A DNA stretch of 46,024 bases from Myxococcales bacterium. Its GTDB lineage: Bacteria > Myxococcota > Kuafuiibacteriia > Kuafuiibacteriales > Kuafuiibacteriaceae. The notes beneath the pieces were generated by a model, which did no database searches, was not told the origin of the DNA, and was given only the letters and a program-made list of their open reading frames with translations. The stretch lies in the NCBI GenBank assembly GCA_019634385.1, contig JAHQVK010000013.1, forward strand, positions 1-46,024, written 5' to 3'. The position numbers and the translations under genes were made by a program. Shown here in pieces: positions 26,060-37,088 of the stretch. The stretch's first letter is position 1, and each line of letters opens with the position of its first letter.

Positions 26060-27322
26060 ATGGTCGACGAATCAACCCATTTAGTTGAACTCATACATGG
26101 TTCGTCCATCTTAAAAAAACGGCTCTGCTACCCTCGCTTTGTTAGCGATGAACTCACAATCCTGATTCTCGACAGCAACTACCACTTGGTAGCGGAAGTT
26201 CGGAATGCCTTTGCTCGCCGCGGTCACAAGGTAATTTCCATCCCTGTGGCCAAAGATAGCGGAGCAATGGTCAACGCCACGCTTCGGGCCCTGGCGGAAG
26301 CACAACCAGACTTTCTTTTCACAGTAAACTTTCTTGGATTCGATCAGGAGGGGATCCTTGGGACTATTCTGGAAACACTACAAGTGCCCGTCGCAGTGTG
26401 GCTGGTGGACTCCCCCTTATTCATCCTCCGCGGTCGACCGGTGCCTGCCCCTTCTACAAGTCAGATATTTTGCTGGGAAAAAGCCTACATACCTGCGCTC
26501 CAAAAAAGCTGTGAATGCCACTACCTCCCTCTCGCCACCGAGCCGTCAGTCTTGGGCGGTCAACCGTCAACCGATGCTCTCGACGTGAGCTTCGTCGGTG
26601 ATAGTGGTCATCGTTCTCAGCAAAAATGGAAACGCCGATTGGCCCCTGAAGATGAGTCAATTGTAGAGGATCTTGCCAAAACATTTACCAAAGGGCCCCA
26701 CCACCGCTTGAGGGAAGCCCTATGCAATCCATCCATCTTGAGCGAACTACTGAGCGATCCTTCTGCGGTAGATCGATGGGCAGCGGCCACCTGGCGAGCC
26801 AACTCTCGGCAGCGAGCAACTTTTATCCGTGCACTCCAGTCATTGCCTTTGAGAGTCTATGGAGATGAAGGGTGGAGAATTATGCTCCCCAGCGCCCCAG
26901 TAGAACCGGGTCCAACTTATGGACCCCAGCTGGCTAAGGTGTACCAAAGCTCAGCCGTGAATCTAAACATCACGAGCTTGCAAATGCCCTCCGGGCTGAA
27001 TCAAAGGATCTTCGATGTGCCTGCCGCTGGCGGTTTTCTACTCACCGACGGCCAAGAAGATCTCTACGACTTTTTCACGGAGACTGACGTTGTCACCTGG
27101 TCAACTCTGGAAGAGGCCCAAGATAAAGCACTCTTCTACTTACAACGACCGAATCTACGGCGAAAGATCATCCACAAGTGTCAGCAAACCATCATTTCCG
27201 CTCACACCTACAGTCACCGCGTTCAAGAGTTACTATCGGTATTAAGAAAGCGGTTTGGCCCCACCCGGTTCAGCCCGGTTCCCTCCGGAACGCCCGCAAG
27301 TGACGATGCACGTACGTCCTAA
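26060..27322 (+). CDS. CgeB-like glycosyltransferase (DUF3880 plus GT1-like)
   Basis: The 420-residue protein has a Rossmann-like N-terminal half (LTILILDSNYHLVAEVRNAF near 32, DFLFTVNF near 85, VAVWLVDSPLF near 110) matching DUF3880. A C-terminal half follows with VSFVGDSGHR, LPLRVYGDEGWR, VYQSSAVNLNI and NQRIFDVPAAGGFLLTD. The last is the acceptor/nucleotide-sugar segment of CgeB/SpmB-type glycosyltransferases that decorate surface or spore layers. The absence of membrane segments fits a cytosolic transferase. The donor and acceptor are unknown. It has no glycosyltransferase or polysaccharide neighbours. Its 3' end overlaps the convergent GYF gene by 53 bp. Confidence 0.82.
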   Translation: MVDESTHLVELIHGSSILKKRLCYPRFVSDELTILILDSNYHLVAEVRNAFARRGHKVISIPVAKDSGAMVNATLRALAEAQPDFLFTVNFLGFDQEGILGTILETLQVPVAVWLVDSPLFILRGRPVPAPSTSQIFCWEKAYIPALQKSCECHYLPLATEPSVLGGQPSTDALDVSFVGDSGHRSQQKWKRRLAPEDESIVEDLAKTFTKGPHHRLREALCNPSILSELLSDPSAVDRWAAATWRANSRQRATFIRALQSLPLRVYGDEGWRIMLPSAPVEPGPTYGPQLAKVYQSSAVNLNITSLQMPSGLNQRIFDVPAAGGFLLTDGQEDLYDFFTETDVVTWSTLEEAQDKALFYLQRPNLRRKIIHKCQQTIISAHTYSHRVQELLSVLRKRFGPTRFSPVPSGTPASDDARTS

Positions 27323-28745
27323 CCGTCCCTCCTCGACCGATGCGAACCTTTACCTTGGAAGCAGAAGCCACCGCGGGAAAAGTCCATCCCTTGGATCGAC
27401 GTCGAACACATTGGGCCACGGATCGCGAAACCCCCCTGATGGAAGTGTTAGTCACCTCTCCCGGGCCAGATACCAAAAGACCGATCTCTACCCCTTCAGG
27501 TAGGGAATCGTTGCGTCGGTCCACTTGTGCGCACCGAACTAAAGACCGAAAATGACTCGCAACAACCCGACCAGCCGCTTCATCCGACAGGGTTGATGGG
27601 AACGGATAAGGCGCAAATCGATGGACCGTTTGGGCTTTCTTAGCCGCACCCTTGCGCCAACCATCCTTCGTCTTCATGGCCCGTGCTCTTACCGTCTTTG
27701 GTACGGGCACGGCCCTCGCGGACCGATGACCATTCAGCCAAGAAAAATCATCTGCTCCTCGCGATAGGCCCGGATTAGCCGGAGCTACGGAAACAGATGA
27801 AGCAGGGGGCCTTTGGAACGAGATAGCAACTCCCGCGGACTTCTTGGTCAACCTCTTCTTCGGCACCACCAGCGGGGTCACAGCCGATGATGTATTCCCC
27901 TCCGATGACGGCGCAACATGCGGCAGTGGGGTCATGGGGCCGGATCGAATATCCTCCGGCTGCATCCATTTTTCTTTAGCCGGAGGATTCGACGGACGAA
28001 CCGTAAGTTTGTCCCAAAGCTCGGTCGCCAAATAGCTAGCGATAAACACCGCACCACCGATGATAAGCGCTGGGCGAAGTATCCCTCGAGATGGCAACCG
28101 GAGCGGATGAGGTTCTTCGTAAGCTTCGTTCTCCACCGATTCCGCCGGCTCTTCATCAACGGACATCACCATCGTAGACGACTGCATCAACACCGTTTGG
28201 ACCATCGAAGGGTCCTCTTCCTCCAGTGAGGCATGGTCTCCCAGGCCCACTGCGGCTAGGAGGCCAGCGCGGACATAAGCCACATCCGACGATAATGAGG
28301 CTCTCCACACCGATAGATTCATTTCTGGAATCACATGCATCGAAAAACCGGGACTCGAGGCATCCACATCAGGGAGCTCAGTTTCCCGGCTTATATGATC
28401 ACGCAAAGAGGTTGCTGGAACCTCATCCAGAAGATCCCGCGACAATCTGACATCAGTGGTGTGTTGCTGGTAGGCATTCTCAAGCAATGGGACCACCCCA
28501 AGCGTCGGCCTCGGAGGAAGTTCTCTATGTAAATCGGACCGAGAATACACCGTGATCCATTGCTCAAAACCCGGCCGCCAGACGTAGTGCGAAGCGGTTA
28601 GTCGTCCCTGTCGAGCCATGCTCACTAGCTCATCATACGCATATGGTCCGTCCGTCTTACCGCTTCGCGCGATGTACCACCGACATCGGAGATCCATGCT
28701 CGTAGGTCCATCTTGGGCGATCCAAGCATGCTTTCCCTGCTGCAT
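27270..28745 (-). CDS. GYF-domain membrane protein with AgmX/PglI-like C-terminal tail
   Basis: A GYF_2/DUF4339 domain at about residues 20-75 (RWYIARSGKTDGPYAYDELV, then YVWRPGFEQWI) is followed by an acidic linker. One membrane helix (about 228-248, LIIGGAVFIASYLA), a Pro/Ser-rich periplasmic linker and a TonB-like C-terminal domain (about 395-480, with RCAQVDRR, VEIGLLVSGPGEV and CVRRRSKGWTFP) complete it. The latter resembles the AgmX/PglI tail found in myxobacterial motility and envelope proteins, with its characteristic Cys pair. So GYF is cytoplasmic and the tail periplasmic; it could carry a signal or force across the membrane. No Shine-Dalgarno is evident; ATG 28697 is an alternative start. 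Confidence 0.8.
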   Translation of the reverse strand: MQQGKHAWIAQDGPTSMDLRCRWYIARSGKTDGPYAYDELVSMARQGRLTASHYVWRPGFEQWITVYSRSDLHRELPPRPTLGVVPLLENAYQQHTTDVRLSRDLLDEVPATSLRDHISRETELPDVDASSPGFSMHVIPEMNLSVWRASLSSDVAYVRAGLLAAVGLGDHASLEEEDPSMVQTVLMQSSTMVMSVDEEPAESVENEAYEEPHPLRLPSRGILRPALIIGGAVFIASYLATELWDKLTVRPSNPPAKEKWMQPEDIRSGPMTPLPHVAPSSEGNTSSAVTPLVVPKKRLTKKSAGVAISFQRPPASSVSVAPANPGLSRGADDFSWLNGHRSARAVPVPKTVRARAMKTKDGWRKGAAKKAQTVHRFAPYPFPSTLSDEAAGRVVASHFRSLVRCAQVDRRNDSLPEGVEIGLLVSGPGEVTNTSIRGVSRSVAQCVRRRSKGWTFPAVASASKVKVRIGRGGTVRTYVHRHLRAFRREPG

Positions 28746-28968
28746 ATTCGTTCGCGTTCGGAAGCCTAGCCATGAAGCGTAGGACCGATCGCAGCCAATC
28801 CCGCGAACTCTTGGCAGGGAACCAAGTTTGCGGTTGCCGCCCCTCTCAAGCTCTATTGCATGGTTCTCCTAGGACTTGGACAGCGAGAGGCGAGACAGGC
28901 ACGTGCCGGTCTGCTAACAGCCCATCCGGCGACAGGTGAAGCTTCACCCGTCTGCGAAAGGTGCGCGG

Positions 28969-31900
28969 ATGAGATCCACTCCTGAAACTCATAAAACGCG
29001 GGCCGTACCGCGTACATGGTCTCCACTTACAACCCTTGCTGGACGACGTATTATGCTCCTGGGCAGTACCGGTTTCCTCGCAAAGGTAATGCTTTCTATG
29101 CTACTCGAGCGGTTTGGCCCAGAGCGCATCTATTGCGTAATACGAGGTACCCGCTCTAAGTCCCCCCGGGATCGTCTATTTGCTGAGGTGCTTTCATCAG
29201 AGATGATGAGCCCTCTTCGTGAGCGTTTTGGAGCGACCTTCGAAGCGGTCGTCAACAAGCAGGTTGAACCCCTGGGTGGGGATCTGAGCCAACCTAATAT
29301 GGGTCTGGACGAAACGACCCTCCATCAATTGCGCGGCAAGGTCGACGTCATCATCAATTCCGCGGGGCTGGTAAACTTCAATCCCCAGCTCGAGCAAGCG
29401 ATTATCTCCAACACGCTTGGCGCACTGACTGTAGCTGAGCTGGCCCGCGAGCTCGGTGCCAAATTGGTCCACGTCAGTACATGCTACGTTGCTGGTGCAC
29501 GATCTGGGCGGATCCGCGAGGACACACCCGTGGTCGGTTACTTTCCGCTACAAGCAGAGATGCCCGGAGTCCAATTTGACTGGCGTCGGGAACTTAATGA
29601 TGTTCACCGCATCATCGAGCAAGTCAAAGCTCGTACCGACGATGCAGCTCTAGAGGTATCACACCGTATGGAAGCCCTGCGTCGCCTCAAGGTAGAGGGA
29701 CGCGAACCCCATAAACGGACACTTCGGGCTGCGATTGCCAATCAGCGACGCCGCTGGGTCACTGAAGAGCAGATACGTCTGGGTGTCGAACGGGCTAAGC
29801 AGTGGGGTTGGACCAATATATATACCTACTCCAAAGCACTGGGAGAACAGGCCGTAGCCTCTACTGAGGGGCTAGACTGGAGCATCATTCGACCCGCCAT
29901 TGTTGAATCGGCCCTTCACTATCCGTTCCCTGGTTGGAACGAAGGAATGAACACCACCGCCCCGCTCGCCTATCTAGGCCTCAACGGCCAAGTAACCTTC
30001 CCTGGCAACAACAAACTTGTCCTGGATGTTGTCCCGGTAGATGCGGTCGCCTCAACAACTTTGGCCGCTGCCGCCGCCGTCCTCGCTGGCCAAACCGATA
30101 AGGTCTACCAAGTTGCCGCTGGCGACGTCAATCCCTGCTCCATGGCGCGAGCGGTGACCCTCGTTGGTGTATATCGTCGTCGCAAGACAAAATCTGAGAT
30201 GAATGAGGGGGAGATTTCCCGCTGGCACGGCGAACTTAAACTAAGACAAGAACCTCATCCCATCTCCCGGCGAGCCTACGAAAACCTTTCCACCCCAGCT
30301 TTGCTGCACTGGATAGAAAAAGCCCGGAAAGCAGTCGATAGTCTTGAGCCGGATCGATATGGTTTCCTCAGCCGGACCGTGGTCCGGGCACAAAAAAGGA
30401 CCAAAGAAGTCGAAGAACAACTAACCAAAGTTAGAGATGTCTTTGATCTCTTCATGCCATTCATCTGGGAAAATCAGTATATATTTAATACTTCAAACAC
30501 CCGAAGCCTCTTCGAGAGCATGAACGAGTCAGACCGGGCTCTGCTCCCTTACGAAGTTGAACGCACCGATTGGAGGCATTATTGGCTAGATGTACATCTA
30601 CCCGGTCTAGAGAAATGGGTCTTCCCCAAGCTAGATATCGATGGCCCCAAGCGAGTAACTATTCCTCGAGATTACAAAGATCTTGCAGAATTATTTGACG
30701 TTCGAACCAGGGAGAACGGCCGCCGAATAGCCTACCATATGGTGCAGAAAGGAGAAGACGCGACCGCATATACTTTCCGAGACGTGCGTAAGGCATCATT
30801 TTATGCCTCGAACTTACTCGAAAAAATGGGCATGAAAGACGGCGACCGGGTGCTACTCATTTCGGAAGGTCGGCCGGAGTGGGGTATGAGCTACTTCGGT
30901 ATTGTCCTTGGCGGCGGCATCGCCGTGCCCGTAGATGTAGATCTATCGCTTTCGGAAGTAGACAATATCGCCAAGGCCGCAGGAGCCAACCTCGCAATCT
31001 CTTCCCCCAAACATGCGGCACGTCTTGCAACCGTCAACGGAGAGTCTTATCTCCAACAGGTACGGGTTATCAAATTTGACGAACTCTTTGGCAACGCTCA
31101 CCAACTGGATGAAACCGAAGACCTCCGACCTAAGAAGCGTCGCCCAGAAGACCCAGCGTCGGTCATTTTTACATCAGGCACCACCGGCCGTCCCAAGGGT
31201 GTAGTCCTCAGCCATCAAAATTTTGCTGCCCTAACTGCTCGATTGTCCGCACTATTTGAGCTCAACCACCACGACGCTATGCTCTCGGTGCTGCCGCCGC
31301 ACCATACCTTTGAGTTTTCTGCCGGGCTACTTATGCCTCTCGCCAAGGGGTCTGCAGTAGCTTATCTCGAAGAACGCACTCCAGAGCTGGTCTCCAAAGC
31401 TTTTGATGAGCTCTCGGTCACCGCCATGATCGGGGTACCGGCAGTAATTGAAAGCCTTCACCGCCGAATTCAGGGAGAATTAGATCGTCTATTCCCACCC
31501 GCACGAATCATCATCCGGCAGCTCATTCGGTTGAACGAGCTTCTGCGCGATCGGACCGGGCTAAATCTAGGACAGATAGTATTCCGACCGGTTCATACCC
31601 AGTTTGGAGGCCAACTCCGCTACCTCATCAGCGGTGCCGCTCCACTCCGGCCGGACATCTATCGCGAGCTCCGCGGCTTAGGATTTGGAATTCATGAGGG
31701 TTATGGCCTCACGGAAGCATCACCGGTTCTCACCGTTGGTTGGCCACACCGTACAACACCAGCCGGTAGTGTTGGATGGCCGCTTCCTGGTATTGAGGTC
31801 CGCATTCTTGATCCCGATGACCGGGGCGTGGGCGAAGTGATCGCGCGTGGGCCTACGATCATGAAAGGCTACTTATCCGCGCCCGAGGCAACTAAAGAAG

Positions 31901-33402
31901 TCCTACGAAATGGTTGGCTCCATACCGGTGACCAAGGGCGCATGGATAAGGATGGACACCTCTTTATCGTCGGGAGAGAAAAAGATACGATTATAGATTC
32001 TTCGGGAAAGAATGTTTATCCTGATGAAATTGAGGAACTCTATGCAGACACCCCCCTCATTGAAGAACTATCAGTAGTTGGTATACCGACTGATAGTGGC
32101 ACCGGGGAGCGGGTCGCGTGCCTCGTGGTTCCCAATTACTCTGTTGAGATTCAGGGGCAAAAACTATCTAGGGAAAAGGTACACGAGGAACTCCAACGCC
32201 ATTTCAAAGATGTTAGCGCTCGACTACCATTCACCCGTAGGATCAAAGTCCTTCATATCTCCGAGCATCAGCTAGCTCGTACATCCACCCGCAAGGTAAA
32301 GCGCAACAGCGTCCGCCAAGAATTGATGCGTTTGGAGCAAGCTCGAAGTACATCTCAGGAAAACTTTAGCCCCGCCACAAAAGATTCAGGGATTGAAGCC
32401 TGGGTCCTAAAAATATTAGCAACTATTACCCGTCGATCGGCGAAAACGATCACCCTTGGGGCACGACTGGTTGATGACTTAGGATTCGACTCTCTAATGC
32501 AGCTAGAGCTTTTCAACACCCTAGAGGCTGAACATCCCCGAGCTCGTATTTCCGCAGATGAAATTGCGGAGGTGACCACGGTGGCGGAGATTGTCGCACT
32601 TGCTCAGCGAGACAAAGCCCCTCCCACCCTAAGCGAAAACATCCGCACCGCAACTGAACCCGAGGAGCCTTGGTCCATCCCAGCCCCATTAGTAACCATA
32701 GGCAAGACGGTACTAGGCATCGCCAACCAACTAGCATACCGAACACTCTTTGATATTCACGTCGAGGGCAAAGGCAACATTCCTGCAAATCGAAACTTCC
32801 TTGTCGCCTCAAACCACTCCAGTCACCTGGATATGGGTTTGGTTAAAGAGGCACTTGGCGTATTTGGCACCAGGATGCGGACCGTAGCTGCCAAAGATTA
32901 TTTTTTCGACGATCCCGTCAGAGGCATCTATTTTCGAAACTTTAGTGACTTGGTGCCAATGGACCGGCATGGTTCCCTCAGAAAGTCACTTCGACTTGCT
33001 TCACAAGCTATACACCAAGGCGATACTTTGCTTATCTTTCCGGAAGGCACACGATCACGGGACGGTAAGATGAGGCCTTTTAGACCAACTATCGGCTGGT
33101 TATGCCTCCACCAAAACGTTGATGTATTACCGATCTGGCTTGGCGGAACCCATGAGTCTCTTCCTGTCGGCGCTAACCTCCCGAAAACAGGAACCCTAGA
33201 GGTTCGCATTGGTGAACCGGTTTGTAGCTACAAAATGCGGGAAGCAACCCGCTCGATGAGTCGCTCCCAGGCGTATCGGTTGGTAACCAAAGAAGTCGAA
33301 CGCCGAGTTCGTACTCTTGGAGGCCTGCCCCTGGACGAAGATGAAACCGAGGATGTGTCCAAATCCAATTCATCCGAACAAGAGGAGCGCTCGACACCAT
33401 GA
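28969..33402 (+). CDS. elbD: ElbD-like multidomain enzyme: acyl reductase, AMP-ligase, acyl carrier, PlsC acyltransferase
   Basis: This is one 1,477-residue protein with four modules. The N-terminus is a fatty-acyl reductase-type SDR (GSTGFLAK about 32; YSK about 287). An AMP-dependent acyl ligase follows (FTSGTTGRPKG about 733, GYGLTEASP, TGDQGRMDKDG, catalytic-type Lys in STRKVKR). Next are a phosphopantetheine carrier (DLGFDSLMQ, Ser about 1175) and a PlsC acyltransferase (NHSSHLD about 1282, FPEGTRS about 1358). The order matches my memory of ElbD, the myxobacterial ether-lipid enzyme. A likely scheme is activation and loading of a fatty acid, reduction of the thioester, and acylation of a glycerol backbone. 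ATG 28969 has AAAGG upstream; GTG 28936 would add 11 residues. Ether-lipid function is inferred. Confidence 0.85.
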   Translation: MRSTPETHKTRAVPRTWSPLTTLAGRRIMLLGSTGFLAKVMLSMLLERFGPERIYCVIRGTRSKSPRDRLFAEVLSSEMMSPLRERFGATFEAVVNKQVEPLGGDLSQPNMGLDETTLHQLRGKVDVIINSAGLVNFNPQLEQAIISNTLGALTVAELARELGAKLVHVSTCYVAGARSGRIREDTPVVGYFPLQAEMPGVQFDWRRELNDVHRIIEQVKARTDDAALEVSHRMEALRRLKVEGREPHKRTLRAAIANQRRRWVTEEQIRLGVERAKQWGWTNIYTYSKALGEQAVASTEGLDWSIIRPAIVESALHYPFPGWNEGMNTTAPLAYLGLNGQVTFPGNNKLVLDVVPVDAVASTTLAAAAAVLAGQTDKVYQVAAGDVNPCSMARAVTLVGVYRRRKTKSEMNEGEISRWHGELKLRQEPHPISRRAYENLSTPALLHWIEKARKAVDSLEPDRYGFLSRTVVRAQKRTKEVEEQLTKVRDVFDLFMPFIWENQYIFNTSNTRSLFESMNESDRALLPYEVERTDWRHYWLDVHLPGLEKWVFPKLDIDGPKRVTIPRDYKDLAELFDVRTRENGRRIAYHMVQKGEDATAYTFRDVRKASFYASNLLEKMGMKDGDRVLLISEGRPEWGMSYFGIVLGGGIAVPVDVDLSLSEVDNIAKAAGANLAISSPKHAARLATVNGESYLQQVRVIKFDELFGNAHQLDETEDLRPKKRRPEDPASVIFTSGTTGRPKGVVLSHQNFAALTARLSALFELNHHDAMLSVLPPHHTFEFSAGLLMPLAKGSAVAYLEERTPELVSKAFDELSVTAMIGVPAVIESLHRRIQGELDRLFPPARIIIRQLIRLNELLRDRTGLNLGQIVFRPVHTQFGGQLRYLISGAAPLRPDIYRELRGLGFGIHEGYGLTEASPVLTVGWPHRTTPAGSVGWPLPGIEVRILDPDDRGVGEVIARGPTIMKGYLSAPEATKEVLRNGWLHTGDQGRMDKDGHLFIVGREKDTIIDSSGKNVYPDEIEELYADTPLIEELSVVGIPTDSGTGERVACLVVPNYSVEIQGQKLSREKVHEELQRHFKDVSARLPFTRRIKVLHISEHQLARTSTRKVKRNSVRQELMRLEQARSTSQENFSPATKDSGIEAWVLKILATITRRSAKTITLGARLVDDLGFDSLMQLELFNTLEAEHPRARISADEIAEVTTVAEIVALAQRDKAPPTLSENIRTATEPEEPWSIPAPLVTIGKTVLGIANQLAYRTLFDIHVEGKGNIPANRNFLVASNHSSHLDMGLVKEALGVFGTRMRTVAAKDYFFDDPVRGIYFRNFSDLVPMDRHGSLRKSLRLASQAIHQGDTLLIFPEGTRSRDGKMRPFRPTIGWLCLHQNVDVLPIWLGGTHESLPVGANLPKTGTLEVRIGEPVCSYKMREATRSMSRSQAYRLVTKEVERRVRTLGGLPLDEDETEDVSKSNSSEQEERSTP

Positions 33403-34391
33403 AGTTGTTTGTGACCGGTGGCACAGGCTTTTTGGGCCAATGGGTGATCCAATTCGCCCTCGAAGCTGGACATAATGTACGAGCCCTTGTTCGCGATGCC
33501 CATGCCAAATTACCTCCCGGGGTCGAAGCAATTGTTGGTAACCTAAGCAAAGCGGACCAACTCACAGCTGGCATCAACGGCTGCGACGCAGTCATTCACC
33601 TTGCGGGCAAAGTTTCCCGGCATAGGGCCGATAGCACTGCGATGCACGAGGTGCACATTCAAGGTACTCGAACCCTGATCTCCGCCATGACCCAGGTGGG
33701 TGTGCAAAAGCTAGTTATGGCTTCAACCTCTGGTACAATCGGCATACGAGAACACCGCCAACAAGAACCGGTTGATGAGACTTACCAACCCAACTTTGAG
33801 CTCCTTGGGCGGTTTCCATACTACACGTCGAAACTATATCAAGAGCAAGAGGCCCTCCGACGTCATGACGCCGGAGATGTCAAAGTGATAATTCTCAATC
33901 CCTCTTTGCTCCTTGGCCCCGGTGATCAGCGTCTAACCTCCACCACTGATGTCCTAGATATCCTCCAACGCCGAGTGCCCGCGGTCAGTAGTGGAACTAT
34001 GGCCATTGTGGACGTCCGCGACGCAGCCCCAATGTTTGTTCGCGCATTAGCTCAAGGTCGTCCTGGTGATCGATACCTTCTCAACGGGGCCAACATGACC
34101 GTACGCAGTTTTGCTCAGCGGGTAGGGGTCGCGGGGGATGTCGCCGCCCCAACCATAAAACTGGGCAAGACTTGGGCGATTCGGAGCTCAAAATGGATCT
34201 ATGGATTGTACGAGGCTTTCGAGCAAGATCCGCCCTTCGATCCGGTAGCGGTCGAAATGTCCACCCTGCATTGGGATGTCGACGCCACCAAAGCCCATCG
34301 CGAACTCAACTTTGTACCTAGAGATCCTCAGCTAACCATCGAGGCAACCGTTCGCGATCTCGAGGCGCGGGGTCTTTTCCGGCGCACATAA
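33399..34391 (+). CDS. NAD(P)-dependent epimerase/dehydratase (extended SDR)
   Basis: The 330-residue protein is an extended short-chain dehydrogenase: GGTGFLG at the N-terminus binds NAD(P), a DAVIHLAGK strand follows, MASTSGTIG is the catalytic Ser/Thr region and YYTSK holds the Tyr and Lys (about residues 147-151). It resembles hopanoid-associated HpnA-type epimerases and 3-beta-hydroxysteroid dehydrogenase-like reductases, but the substrate cannot be read. Its ATG overlaps the stop of the ElbD-like gene by 4 bp (ATGA), with GAGGAG upstream, so the two are coupled. A role on a keto or hydroxy lipid made by the large enzyme is a reasonable guess. Confidence 0.85.
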   Translation: MKLFVTGGTGFLGQWVIQFALEAGHNVRALVRDAHAKLPPGVEAIVGNLSKADQLTAGINGCDAVIHLAGKVSRHRADSTAMHEVHIQGTRTLISAMTQVGVQKLVMASTSGTIGIREHRQQEPVDETYQPNFELLGRFPYYTSKLYQEQEALRRHDAGDVKVIILNPSLLLGPGDQRLTSTTDVLDILQRRVPAVSSGTMAIVDVRDAAPMFVRALAQGRPGDRYLLNGANMTVRSFAQRVGVAGDVAAPTIKLGKTWAIRSSKWIYGLYEAFEQDPPFDPVAVEMSTLHWDVDATKAHRELNFVPRDPQLTIEATVRDLEARGLFRRT

Positions 34392-34440: not shown

Positions 34441-35565
34441 GTGAGTCCATCCGACCGACTCCGCAACGTGCGAGCCGAGCTCAAAAGTCTGTTCTTGGAG
34501 CGGGAAACCGTCATAGACGGATTGCTGATTGCCCTCATGTCCCAAAAACATGTTCTGCTTTTAGGGCCCCCGGGGACAGCCAAGTCTATGCTTGCCCGAG
34601 CGCTCACGGAGCGACTCGAAGGAGCTAAACTGTTCGAGTGGTTGCTCACTAAGTTCACCACCCCCGAGGAACTCTTTGGACCCCCGTCTCTGCCTGCGTT
34701 GGAAAGTGGTCGCTACGAGAGAATTTTGGACGGAAAGCTACCAGAAGCGGAGGTTGCGTTTCTCGACGAAGTGTTCAAAGCCAACTCCGCTATTCTCAAC
34801 GCCCTGCTTGCCCTGCTTGCCGAGCGTAAGTTCCATCAGGGTACCCAAGCCATAGCTAGTCCGTTGGAAACAACCATAGCCGCTTCTAATGAACTCCCTG
34901 ATGAGGACGAACTTGGTGCACTCTACGATCGATTTCTTCTACGATTTACAGTCAATTACATCGAGGACGAACAGAAATTTGAAGCTCTCCTCCGCGCATC
35001 AGTTCCACCCCCTCCAGTCACCCGCCTCAATCCACTAGATCTAGCAGCGCTGCGCAAAGACTGCTCCACAACCACTGTCACAGACAGTGTGTTGGCTGAT
35101 CTGGTCCGCCTTCGAAGGGATCTTTCGGTTGAAGGTATCATTGCTTCTGACCGTCGATGGCGCCAGTCATTGGATATCCTTAGAGCTAGTGCCGTCCTTG
35201 AGGGACGGCAGGTTGTTCAGCGCACCGACTTAAAGTGGCTGGCTCACGTACTGTGGAATGACCCTGAGGAACGCCCTAAGGTTGTGGTGACAATGAACGG
35301 TCTTATGGGTCGTGAGGAGGAAGAAGCCCAAAAGATCCGTTTCCAGGCCAAAGAAATTCATGCGTATGCCTCACGGGAATGGCCAGATAGTTCCAGCAAT
35401 GCCCGGGCTGTGCTCGAAGCACACACAAAACTAGAAGACCTTCGACGCCGAGTGGAGCGATTGAGCAACGAAGCTAAACGAGACAAGCGGGATCCTGGTA
35501 GCCTAGTACAGCTCCAACACGATATTATCTCTATGCAATCCGAACTGCTGGGCTCCATGAACTAA
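34441..35565 (+). CDS. MoxR-family AAA+ ATPase, RavA-like
   Basis: The 374-residue AAA+ ATPase has Walker A GPPGTAKS (about 41-48), Walker B VAFLDEVFK (about 102-110), sensor 1 in TTIAASNELPDE and an Arg-finger region in ALYDRFLLRF. An N-terminal start with RNVRAELKSLFLERE and a helical C-terminus place it with the RavA branch of MoxR ATPases. These act with a vWA-domain partner as metal-dependent chaperones or assembly factors, e.g. RavA-ViaA in E. coli. The start codon is GTG. Its stop overlaps the start of the vWA gene (TAATG), so they are stoichiometrically coupled. A 49-bp gap separates it from the SDR gene. Confidence 0.88.
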   Translation: MSPSDRLRNVRAELKSLFLERETVIDGLLIALMSQKHVLLLGPPGTAKSMLARALTERLEGAKLFEWLLTKFTTPEELFGPPSLPALESGRYERILDGKLPEAEVAFLDEVFKANSAILNALLALLAERKFHQGTQAIASPLETTIAASNELPDEDELGALYDRFLLRFTVNYIEDEQKFEALLRASVPPPPVTRLNPLDLAALRKDCSTTTVTDSVLADLVRLRRDLSVEGIIASDRRWRQSLDILRASAVLEGRQVVQRTDLKWLAHVLWNDPEERPKVVVTMNGLMGREEEEAQKIRFQAKEIHAYASREWPDSSSNARAVLEAHTKLEDLRRRVERLSNEAKRDKRDPGSLVQLQHDIISMQSELLGSMN

Positions 35566-37088
35566 TGATCGAAGTGCAAACCTTAGAAATCGACGGCTAT
35601 GACCGGGATGTTTTTGAACGCATCTACCGAGCCGACAAAACCCTTCACGCTCATAAAGAGCGCTTAGGTCGACTTCTTCCCCACCCATTTGCTCTATTGC
35701 TTGACCTATTTGCGGTGCTCTTCAAACTGAATCTGATGATTCGACCTCGCCAAGAGGTGCAACCATCCGTTCTTATCAACCGCCATCTTGTAGAAGCAGT
35801 CCTTGGCCGCCCCGGAATCCAAGCGCTACGAGAACGGACCCAACTCAACGAATATGAGACGCGAATTGTACTCGTTGTCCTCGTTGACCGCCTGCTCCGA
35901 GCACTCACACGAAGCAACCACATGTCCCCATCAATGCTTGATGAAGGCATAGAGTTATCCCTCGAGGAGCAAAAACTCACCGAAACCCAAGGTATGCTGG
36001 ACCACTTGGAGAACCACCAGTTCCCCGTTGACAACGCGACTCGTAAACAACTCGCACACAACCTAAAAAAAGAAATTCAACACCAGAAAACAAAACTTCG
36101 AGAGGGAAAGGAACAGCAACAACAGCATGCGGACAACCTTCCCATCGAGCTCGACAACGAGGTTGGAGCCTCCGTGGAACGGATGGCGACAGAGCTGGAT
36201 GAATTCGACGAGCACCTACGCGGCCTTGGGCTGGCTAACAATGGTACTCTCCATCCAGATGCCGCTCGGCGGCGACTGGAGCTCGGAGAAAAGCTCGCAC
36301 GGAGTAAGAAACTGCAACTCCTAGCCCGGCTCGCTGGTACTCTCAAGGAGATCGCCTTCGAACAACGTAAAAAGTCTATCTCTCGCGCATCACAAACGGT
36401 GCACTCTGTTGCTGTTGGGGCCGATCTTACTCATCTTTTGCCATCCGAACTCCCGGGACTCAACAAGCAAAGAAGGGGAATACACCTCGATTTTTTACGC
36501 CGATTCACCGAGAAGCAGCTCATGCAGTACGATCTCCGTGCCCCCGCCCAGCGGGGCCCCATGGTCGTATGCGTAGATGGCAGCAGCTCTATGGCCGGCA
36601 GTAAAGAAGTCTGGGCCAAAGCTGTAGGACTAACTCTGATGGAGATAGCCCGTAGAGAGCGCAGAGCTTGCCTGGCGATCGTGTTTTCCGATGGGCAGGA
36701 ACTCTTCGAAGTTGAACTGGTTTCCGATCGAACCAAATTTGGACACCGGAGCCAGGTGGAGGACCGCTCAGTACTCAAGTTTGCTGAATACTTCCCAGGT
36801 GGTGGTACGAACTTTGAGCCCCCTTTACGACGTGCTCTAACCGCAGTCACAAGCCGTAACTATAGAAGAGGTGATATTATTTTCATCACCGATGGCCAAG
36901 CCCATTTGGATGATGCTCTTGTTAAAGAGATCAGTGATAAAAAAAAGCGCCATAGATTTAAAATAAGAAGTATTCTCGTAGATCTAGATAGCCAACAAGC
37001 CTCCCATCTTCGTCGGGTTGCCGATGACGTCATCCATATACACGACCTTAGTGAAAACGCGCTCAGCGGTATATTTACTGCAGTTTAA
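35565..37088 (+). CDS. vWA-domain protein, ViaA-like partner of the MoxR ATPase
   Basis: The 507-residue protein has a long helical N-terminal part (about 1-310) with a Gln-rich coiled-coil patch (KEQQQQH near 185) and a C-terminal vWA domain from about residue 330. The metal site is intact: DGSSS (about 338), a later Thr in GGGTNFEP and Asp in FITDGQ. It has no signal peptide or membrane helix, so it is cytosolic like ViaA. ViaA-type proteins deliver or recognise clients for RavA-type ATPases, and E. coli RavA-ViaA has been linked to respiratory complexes and membrane lipids. Here the pair follows a lipid-synthesis unit. The substrate is unknown. Confidence 0.85.
   Translation: MIEVQTLEIDGYDRDVFERIYRADKTLHAHKERLGRLLPHPFALLLDLFAVLFKLNLMIRPRQEVQPSVLINRHLVEAVLGRPGIQALRERTQLNEYETRIVLVVLVDRLLRALTRSNHMSPSMLDEGIELSLEEQKLTETQGMLDHLENHQFPVDNATRKQLAHNLKKEIQHQKTKLREGKEQQQQHADNLPIELDNEVGASVERMATELDEFDEHLRGLGLANNGTLHPDAARRRLELGEKLARSKKLQLLARLAGTLKEIAFEQRKKSISRASQTVHSVAVGADLTHLLPSELPGLNKQRRGIHLDFLRRFTEKQLMQYDLRAPAQRGPMVVCVDGSSSMAGSKEVWAKAVGLTLMEIARRERRACLAIVFSDGQELFEVELVSDRTKFGHRSQVEDRSVLKFAEYFPGGGTNFEPPLRRALTAVTSRNYRRGDIIFITDGQAHLDDALVKEISDKKKRHRFKIRSILVDLDSQQASHLRRVADDVIHIHDLSENALSGIFTAV

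Follow-up and report, generated by a model that had tools for sequence, protein, structure and literature searches.

The closest described system is the elb operon (elbA-E) of Myxococcus. In M. xanthus both ElbD and ElbE have a part in making ether lipids: elbD mutants lose them, and disruption of elbE, the operon partner of elbD, lowers their content, a defect that elbD does not rescue (PMC9131029). In vitro activity of M. xanthus ElbD was demonstrated for the ACS and ACP modules but not for the FAR or acyltransferase modules; linkage of elbB and elbC to elbD is not required, ElbC was described as a protein 'of unknown function', and disruption of AGPS had a small effect (PMC9131029). The elb operon is also present in Acidobacteria subdivision 4 (PMC10087280), to which Pyrinomonas, with abundant ether and membrane-spanning lipids, belongs (PMC4644332). 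Two other routes serve for comparison: the mammalian FAR1/GNPAT/AGPS/alkyl-DHAP reductase route and the anaerobic Ger/PlsA (glycerol ester reductase) route, which also yields sn-1 alkyl ethers.

The DNA analyzed here (the window) is a stretch of 46,024 nucleotides from the assembly GCA_019634385.1 (contig JAHQVK010000013.1, positions 1 to 46,024) of an uncultured Myxococcota bacterium of the family Kuafuiibacteriaceae. We consider it probable, with good confidence, that the window carries the elbD-elbE operon of an Elb ether-lipid pathway and that the product is an alkyl ether and not a plasmalogen.

The elbD-elbE gene pair

The original prediction described a single polypeptide carrying reductase, AMP-ligase, carrier and PlsC modules, each with its key motifs, in an ElbD-like order, and an SDR gene overlapping it by ATGA. 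The analysis bore this out. All five Pfam domains were found in that order (Table 1), and the reductase (GSTGFLAK, YTYSK), ligase (TSGTTGRPKG, YGLTE, TGD), carrier (LGFDS) and acyltransferase (NHSSHLD, FPEGTRS) motifs are conserved in an alignment of 21 homologues. The ATGA at positions 33399-33402 is common to the stop of elbD and the start of the SDR gene, and no internal stops were found in the pair. An in-frame GTG at 28936, upstream from the ATG at 28969, is an alternative start for elbD.

Table 1. Features of the elbD-elbE pair in the window and of the elbC-elbB pair elsewhere in the same genome
Feature	Position	Strand	Description
elbD orthologue	28969..33402	+	1477 aa, ATG start, FAR-ACS-ACP-PlsC
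Fatty-acyl reductase domain, NAD(P)-binding (NAD_binding_4)	29062..30057	+	aa 32-363, Pfam 1.1e-49
Sterile domain (FAR C-terminal)	30367..30624	+	aa 467-552, Pfam 3.7e-10
AMP-binding (acyl-CoA/ACP synthetase) domain	30703..31875	+	aa 579-969, Pfam 2.8e-76
AMP-binding C-terminal subdomain	32026..32220	+	aa 1020-1084, weak, below curated cut-off
Carrier (phosphopantetheine, PP-binding) domain	32401..32601	+	aa 1145-1211, Pfam 6.4e-8; Ser1175 of LGFDS
PlsC-type Acyltransferase domain	32755..33141	+	aa 1263-1391, Pfam 2.7e-21
elbE orthologue	33399..34391	+	extended SDR, 330 aa; GGTGFLG, YYTSK; ATGA overlap with elbD
elbB (HAD-IB)	L118 (G000:C123) 316-1038	minus	own genome
elbC (LarA-type NPN family NF052592)	L118 (G000:C123) 1041-2642	minus	own genome

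Whole-protein homologues of ElbD were found across the phylum (E = 0); the full-length, collinear homologues of two same-family genomes are 60% and 55% identical, and identity is 43-47% in most other Myxococcota possessing the gene. The ElbD proteins of M. vastator, M. dinghuensis and a Myxococcus-type genome (G049) were used as references, standing in for M. xanthus ABF88003.1. The window protein is collinear with Myxococcus ElbD over aa 22-1450 with 43-44% identity, and a Myxococcus-type ElbD query returned the window gene as its reciprocal best hit with 1262 bits, the next protein of the genome scoring 127. In M. vastator (L196), M. sp. CA023 (L206) and M. dinghuensis (L232) the genes elbA-B-C-D-E are consecutive and ElbD is 43% identical to that of the window. 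No other multidomain reductase family was found to be closer. Judged by domain order, motifs, collinear identity and reciprocal best hit, the window protein is an ElbD orthologue.

The SDR is ElbE. The elbE gene directly follows elbD in every examined locus extending that far. The coupling of the two genes is not a novel one, and the proposal that the SDR acts on the same lipid intermediate, although right, was already known from the lowered ether lipids of the M. xanthus elbE mutant (PMC9131029).

Two further NAD_binding_4 reductase-like proteins are encoded in the same genome (G000:C163:6150-6857 and G000:C40:1150-1809, the open frames being 397 and 768 aa long). Upstream from elbD, a divergent gene (window 27270-28745, minus strand) codes for a product that combines a GYF domain with a weak match to AgmX/PglI at its C-terminus and partially resembles the gliding protein GltJ. 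On the elbE strand, 49 bp past elbE, a MoxR-type AAA ATPase and a VWA protein (RavA-ViaA-like) are encoded at window 34441-37088. This pair was rejected as a part of the pathway: it does not adjoin elbE in the same-family genome G002 (L040), where an rsmB-like gene directly follows elbE, and it therefore looks inserted.

Partner genes and other ether-lipid routes

The reference elb operon (L041) was taken from genome G049, a single contig of 8,973,512 bp. The present genome shares with the Myxococcus operon the module order of ElbD, an elbE directly downstream and orthologues of ElbB and ElbC, but here the operon is split into elbD-elbE and elbC-elbB, and neither CarF nor AGPS was found. The elbC and elbB genes are located on contig C123, where they follow each other in the order C-B with a gap of 2 nt, unlinked to elbD-elbE; ElbC is 60% identical to the Myxococcus protein. 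No ElbA-like gene was found beside either pair. Two relatives, G002 and G012, have their elb genes divided in the same way, with elbC 78-81% identical. In other genomes B-C-D-E usually form a single cluster.

Among the Acidobacteriota, an elbD-type gene is located downstream of elbC in all 24 loci whose sequence extends 8 kb or more past elbC. Two loci of this phylum, L208 and L228, carry between elbC and elbE a reductase-only ElbD (NAD_binding_4 plus Sterile; L208 3103-4602 and L228 6016-7692) of 499-558 aa, so that ElbB, ElbC, the reductase domain and ElbE may be the irreducible core. In both, a YegS/DAG-kinase gene adjoins elbE, and PlsY is encoded nearby in L228.

The presence of ElbC and ElbD was scored independently in 146 Myxococcota genomes, with thresholds set by eye at a clear E-value gap and a contig-edge ElbD fragment (genome G118) counted as present: 99 genomes had both proteins, 47 had neither, and there were no exceptions. 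A Fisher test on this co-occurrence is inflated by shared ancestry. The pattern nevertheless persists within one family (f13), in which some genera have both proteins and other genera have neither. LarC was found in 98 of the 99 genomes with both proteins; the remaining one, G114 (95% complete), has LarE and gave no PF01969/LarC match.

The assembly of the host is 93% complete, and absences from it are therefore not absolute. The original prediction had called for a search for a CarF-type plasmalogen desaturase, and this came back empty: no CarF (PF10520) was found in this genome nor in three genomes of the same family (G002, G012 and G019), which speaks against formation of plasmalogens. No AGPS orthologue was found in the assembly, its best FAD oxidases being distant relatives (22-29% identical), and the Ger/PlsA signature PF09989 was not matched in this genome or in four others searched; both of these routes were set aside. 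Compared with the mammalian route, equivalent chemistry of activation, reduction, acylation and carbonyl reduction would be expected, but here AGPS is missing and the modules are fused in one protein. With CarF, AGPS and Ger/PlsA all missing, alkyl (plasmanyl) ether lipids, and not plasmalogens, are the expected product, with the Elb route as their only source.

Of the 146 Myxococcota genomes, 19 have a true AGPS (identity of 49% or more), as against 99 with ElbD; the Elb set thus mostly works without AGPS, in agreement with the small effect of AGPS disruption in M. xanthus (PMC9131029).

ElbC as a LarA-type protein

ElbC scored 849 bits against the NCBIfam model NF052592 (LarAH14/15/16), and the copy of the present genome 800, the cut-off being 740. 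An AlphaFold model of the ElbC of a relative (L160; pLDDT 90) found its best match among the single-histidine LarA enzymes (9q3k, TM 0.79/0.87). The residues of ElbC, numbered as in the host's own copy, were compared with those of LarA_Sp (PMC12611868) through equivalences set by hand from the HMM alignment. The putative cofactor lysine K205, nickel-ligand histidine H221 and catalytic histidine H130, as well as Y363 and H461 (Tyr307 and His401 of LarA_Sp), show no variation among 17 sequences, nor among 35. The second catalytic histidine of LarA has no counterpart in ElbC, an invariant Asn196 lying one residue away.

By family score, fold and residues, ElbC is a member of the LarA nickel-pincer-nucleotide (NPN) superfamily. 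It shares with LarA_Sp, LarA_Bw and LarAH14/15/16 the fold, the cofactor lysine, the nickel-ligand histidine, one catalytic histidine and the equivalents of Y307 and H401. It differs from this group in that identity is 23%, in a proline (Pro362) replacing His306 of LarA_Sp, and in having lipid genes and not sugar genes as its neighbours. The Arg/Lys that contacts the NPN phosphate is also replaced, by Leu, Val, Ile or Met in all sequences, and for this reason binding of the cofactor by ElbC is likely but not certain.

The NPN-making LarE is present in the genome. LarC was found in two pieces on two contigs (G000:C171:131-1210 and G000:C98:30531-30944), one of them near the contig start, which is probably due to an assembly break. 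The LarAH15 of PMC11770544, a Phytophthora gluconate epimerase, was discarded as a relative of ElbC, its numbering seemingly being a different one. In the literature searched, we found no paper linking LarA or NPN with Elb or ether lipids, and no reported substrate for LarA groups 14-16.

Proposed pathway and its meaning

We infer the substrates, the order of steps and the products in this organism as follows. The AMP-ligase of ElbD would activate a fatty acid and load it onto the protein's own carrier domain; the N-terminal reductase would convert the acyl group to an aldehyde or alcohol, and the PlsC domain would acylate a glycerol-phosphate acceptor. The carbonyl intermediate reduced by ElbE would be a fatty aldehyde, or else 1-alkyl-DHAP, which would give 1-alkyl-G3P. 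The pathway would be completed by the products of the unlinked elbC and elbB genes: ElbB (HAD-IB phosphatase-like) would remove a phosphate, and ElbC would carry out a hydride-type reaction on the glycerol moiety.

An NPN enzyme with one histidine could not easily perform a two-base racemization; removal and return of a hydride could be within its reach. ElbC might then supply the ether-forming step itself, a specific proposal that we hold to be unlikely: an acylated glycerol-phosphate would be transiently oxidized at its C2 hydroxyl to a DHAP-like ketone, the C1 acyl group exchanged for the fatty alcohol made by ElbD, and the hydride returned by ElbC or ElbE. Were ElbC to act on this hydroxyl, the transient C2 ketone would resemble the DHAP lipids that are the substrates of AGPS.

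The aldehydes or alcohols made by ElbD could instead go into products other than ether lipids, for instance wax esters or storage lipids derived from alcohols, with the PlsC domain making ordinary phospholipid. The FAR and PlsC domains would fit such a use, and ElbD homologues occur in Pontiella, in which ether lipids were not detected (PMC11868695). We nevertheless regard it as very unlikely, given the loss of ether lipids in M. xanthus elbD mutants (PMC9131029) and the conservation of elbB-C-D-E as a unit, also in the Acidobacteriota, whose subdivision 4 makes ether lipids. That the system is a decaying remnant, its operon split over two contigs and the pathway perhaps no longer running in this organism, is the least probable of the alternatives: the motifs are all intact, the genes have no internal stops, and G002 and G012 maintain the same split with well conserved elbC genes.

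A role of ElbE as an HpnA-type (hopanoid-associated) protein or as an epimerase of nucleotide sugars, with its place beside elbD due to chance, is also highly improbable. HpnA is the best NCBIfam model for ElbE, and several solved sugar epimerases also have its fold; the score of 194.6 bits, however, lies far below the HpnA cut-off of 367.65, and identity with HpnA was rejected. The closest solved fold to the predicted structure (pLDDT 94) is 3wj7 (gox2253, a reductase-like SDR), followed by cinnamoyl-CoA reductases, and elbE adjoins elbD, or a FAR-only ElbD, across the Myxococcota and Acidobacteriota. We take ElbE to be a carbonyl reductase and not an epimerase of sugars.

The preferred reading, an Elb pathway leading to alkyl ethers, makes the pair in the window an ordinary, intact new member of the known ElbD/ElbE system, and the interest lies mainly in the partner ElbC, encoded outside the window. 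An uncultured Myxococcota family can be added to those that probably make alkyl ether lipids, and its Elb set is accompanied by neither AGPS nor CarF nor Ger/PlsA. Because ElbC is of the LarA type, agrees with ElbD in its occurrence in 146 of 146 genomes and is linked to it in the Acidobacteriota, the hypothesis that bacteria use a nickel-dependent step to make ether lipids becomes testable, and the link suggests a possible role for LarA groups 14-16. If ElbC did supply the ether-forming step, it would act as an aerobic synthase of ether lipids with no relation to AGPS or Ger, and, as far as the literature searched shows, no NPN enzyme would have had a role in lipid synthesis before it.
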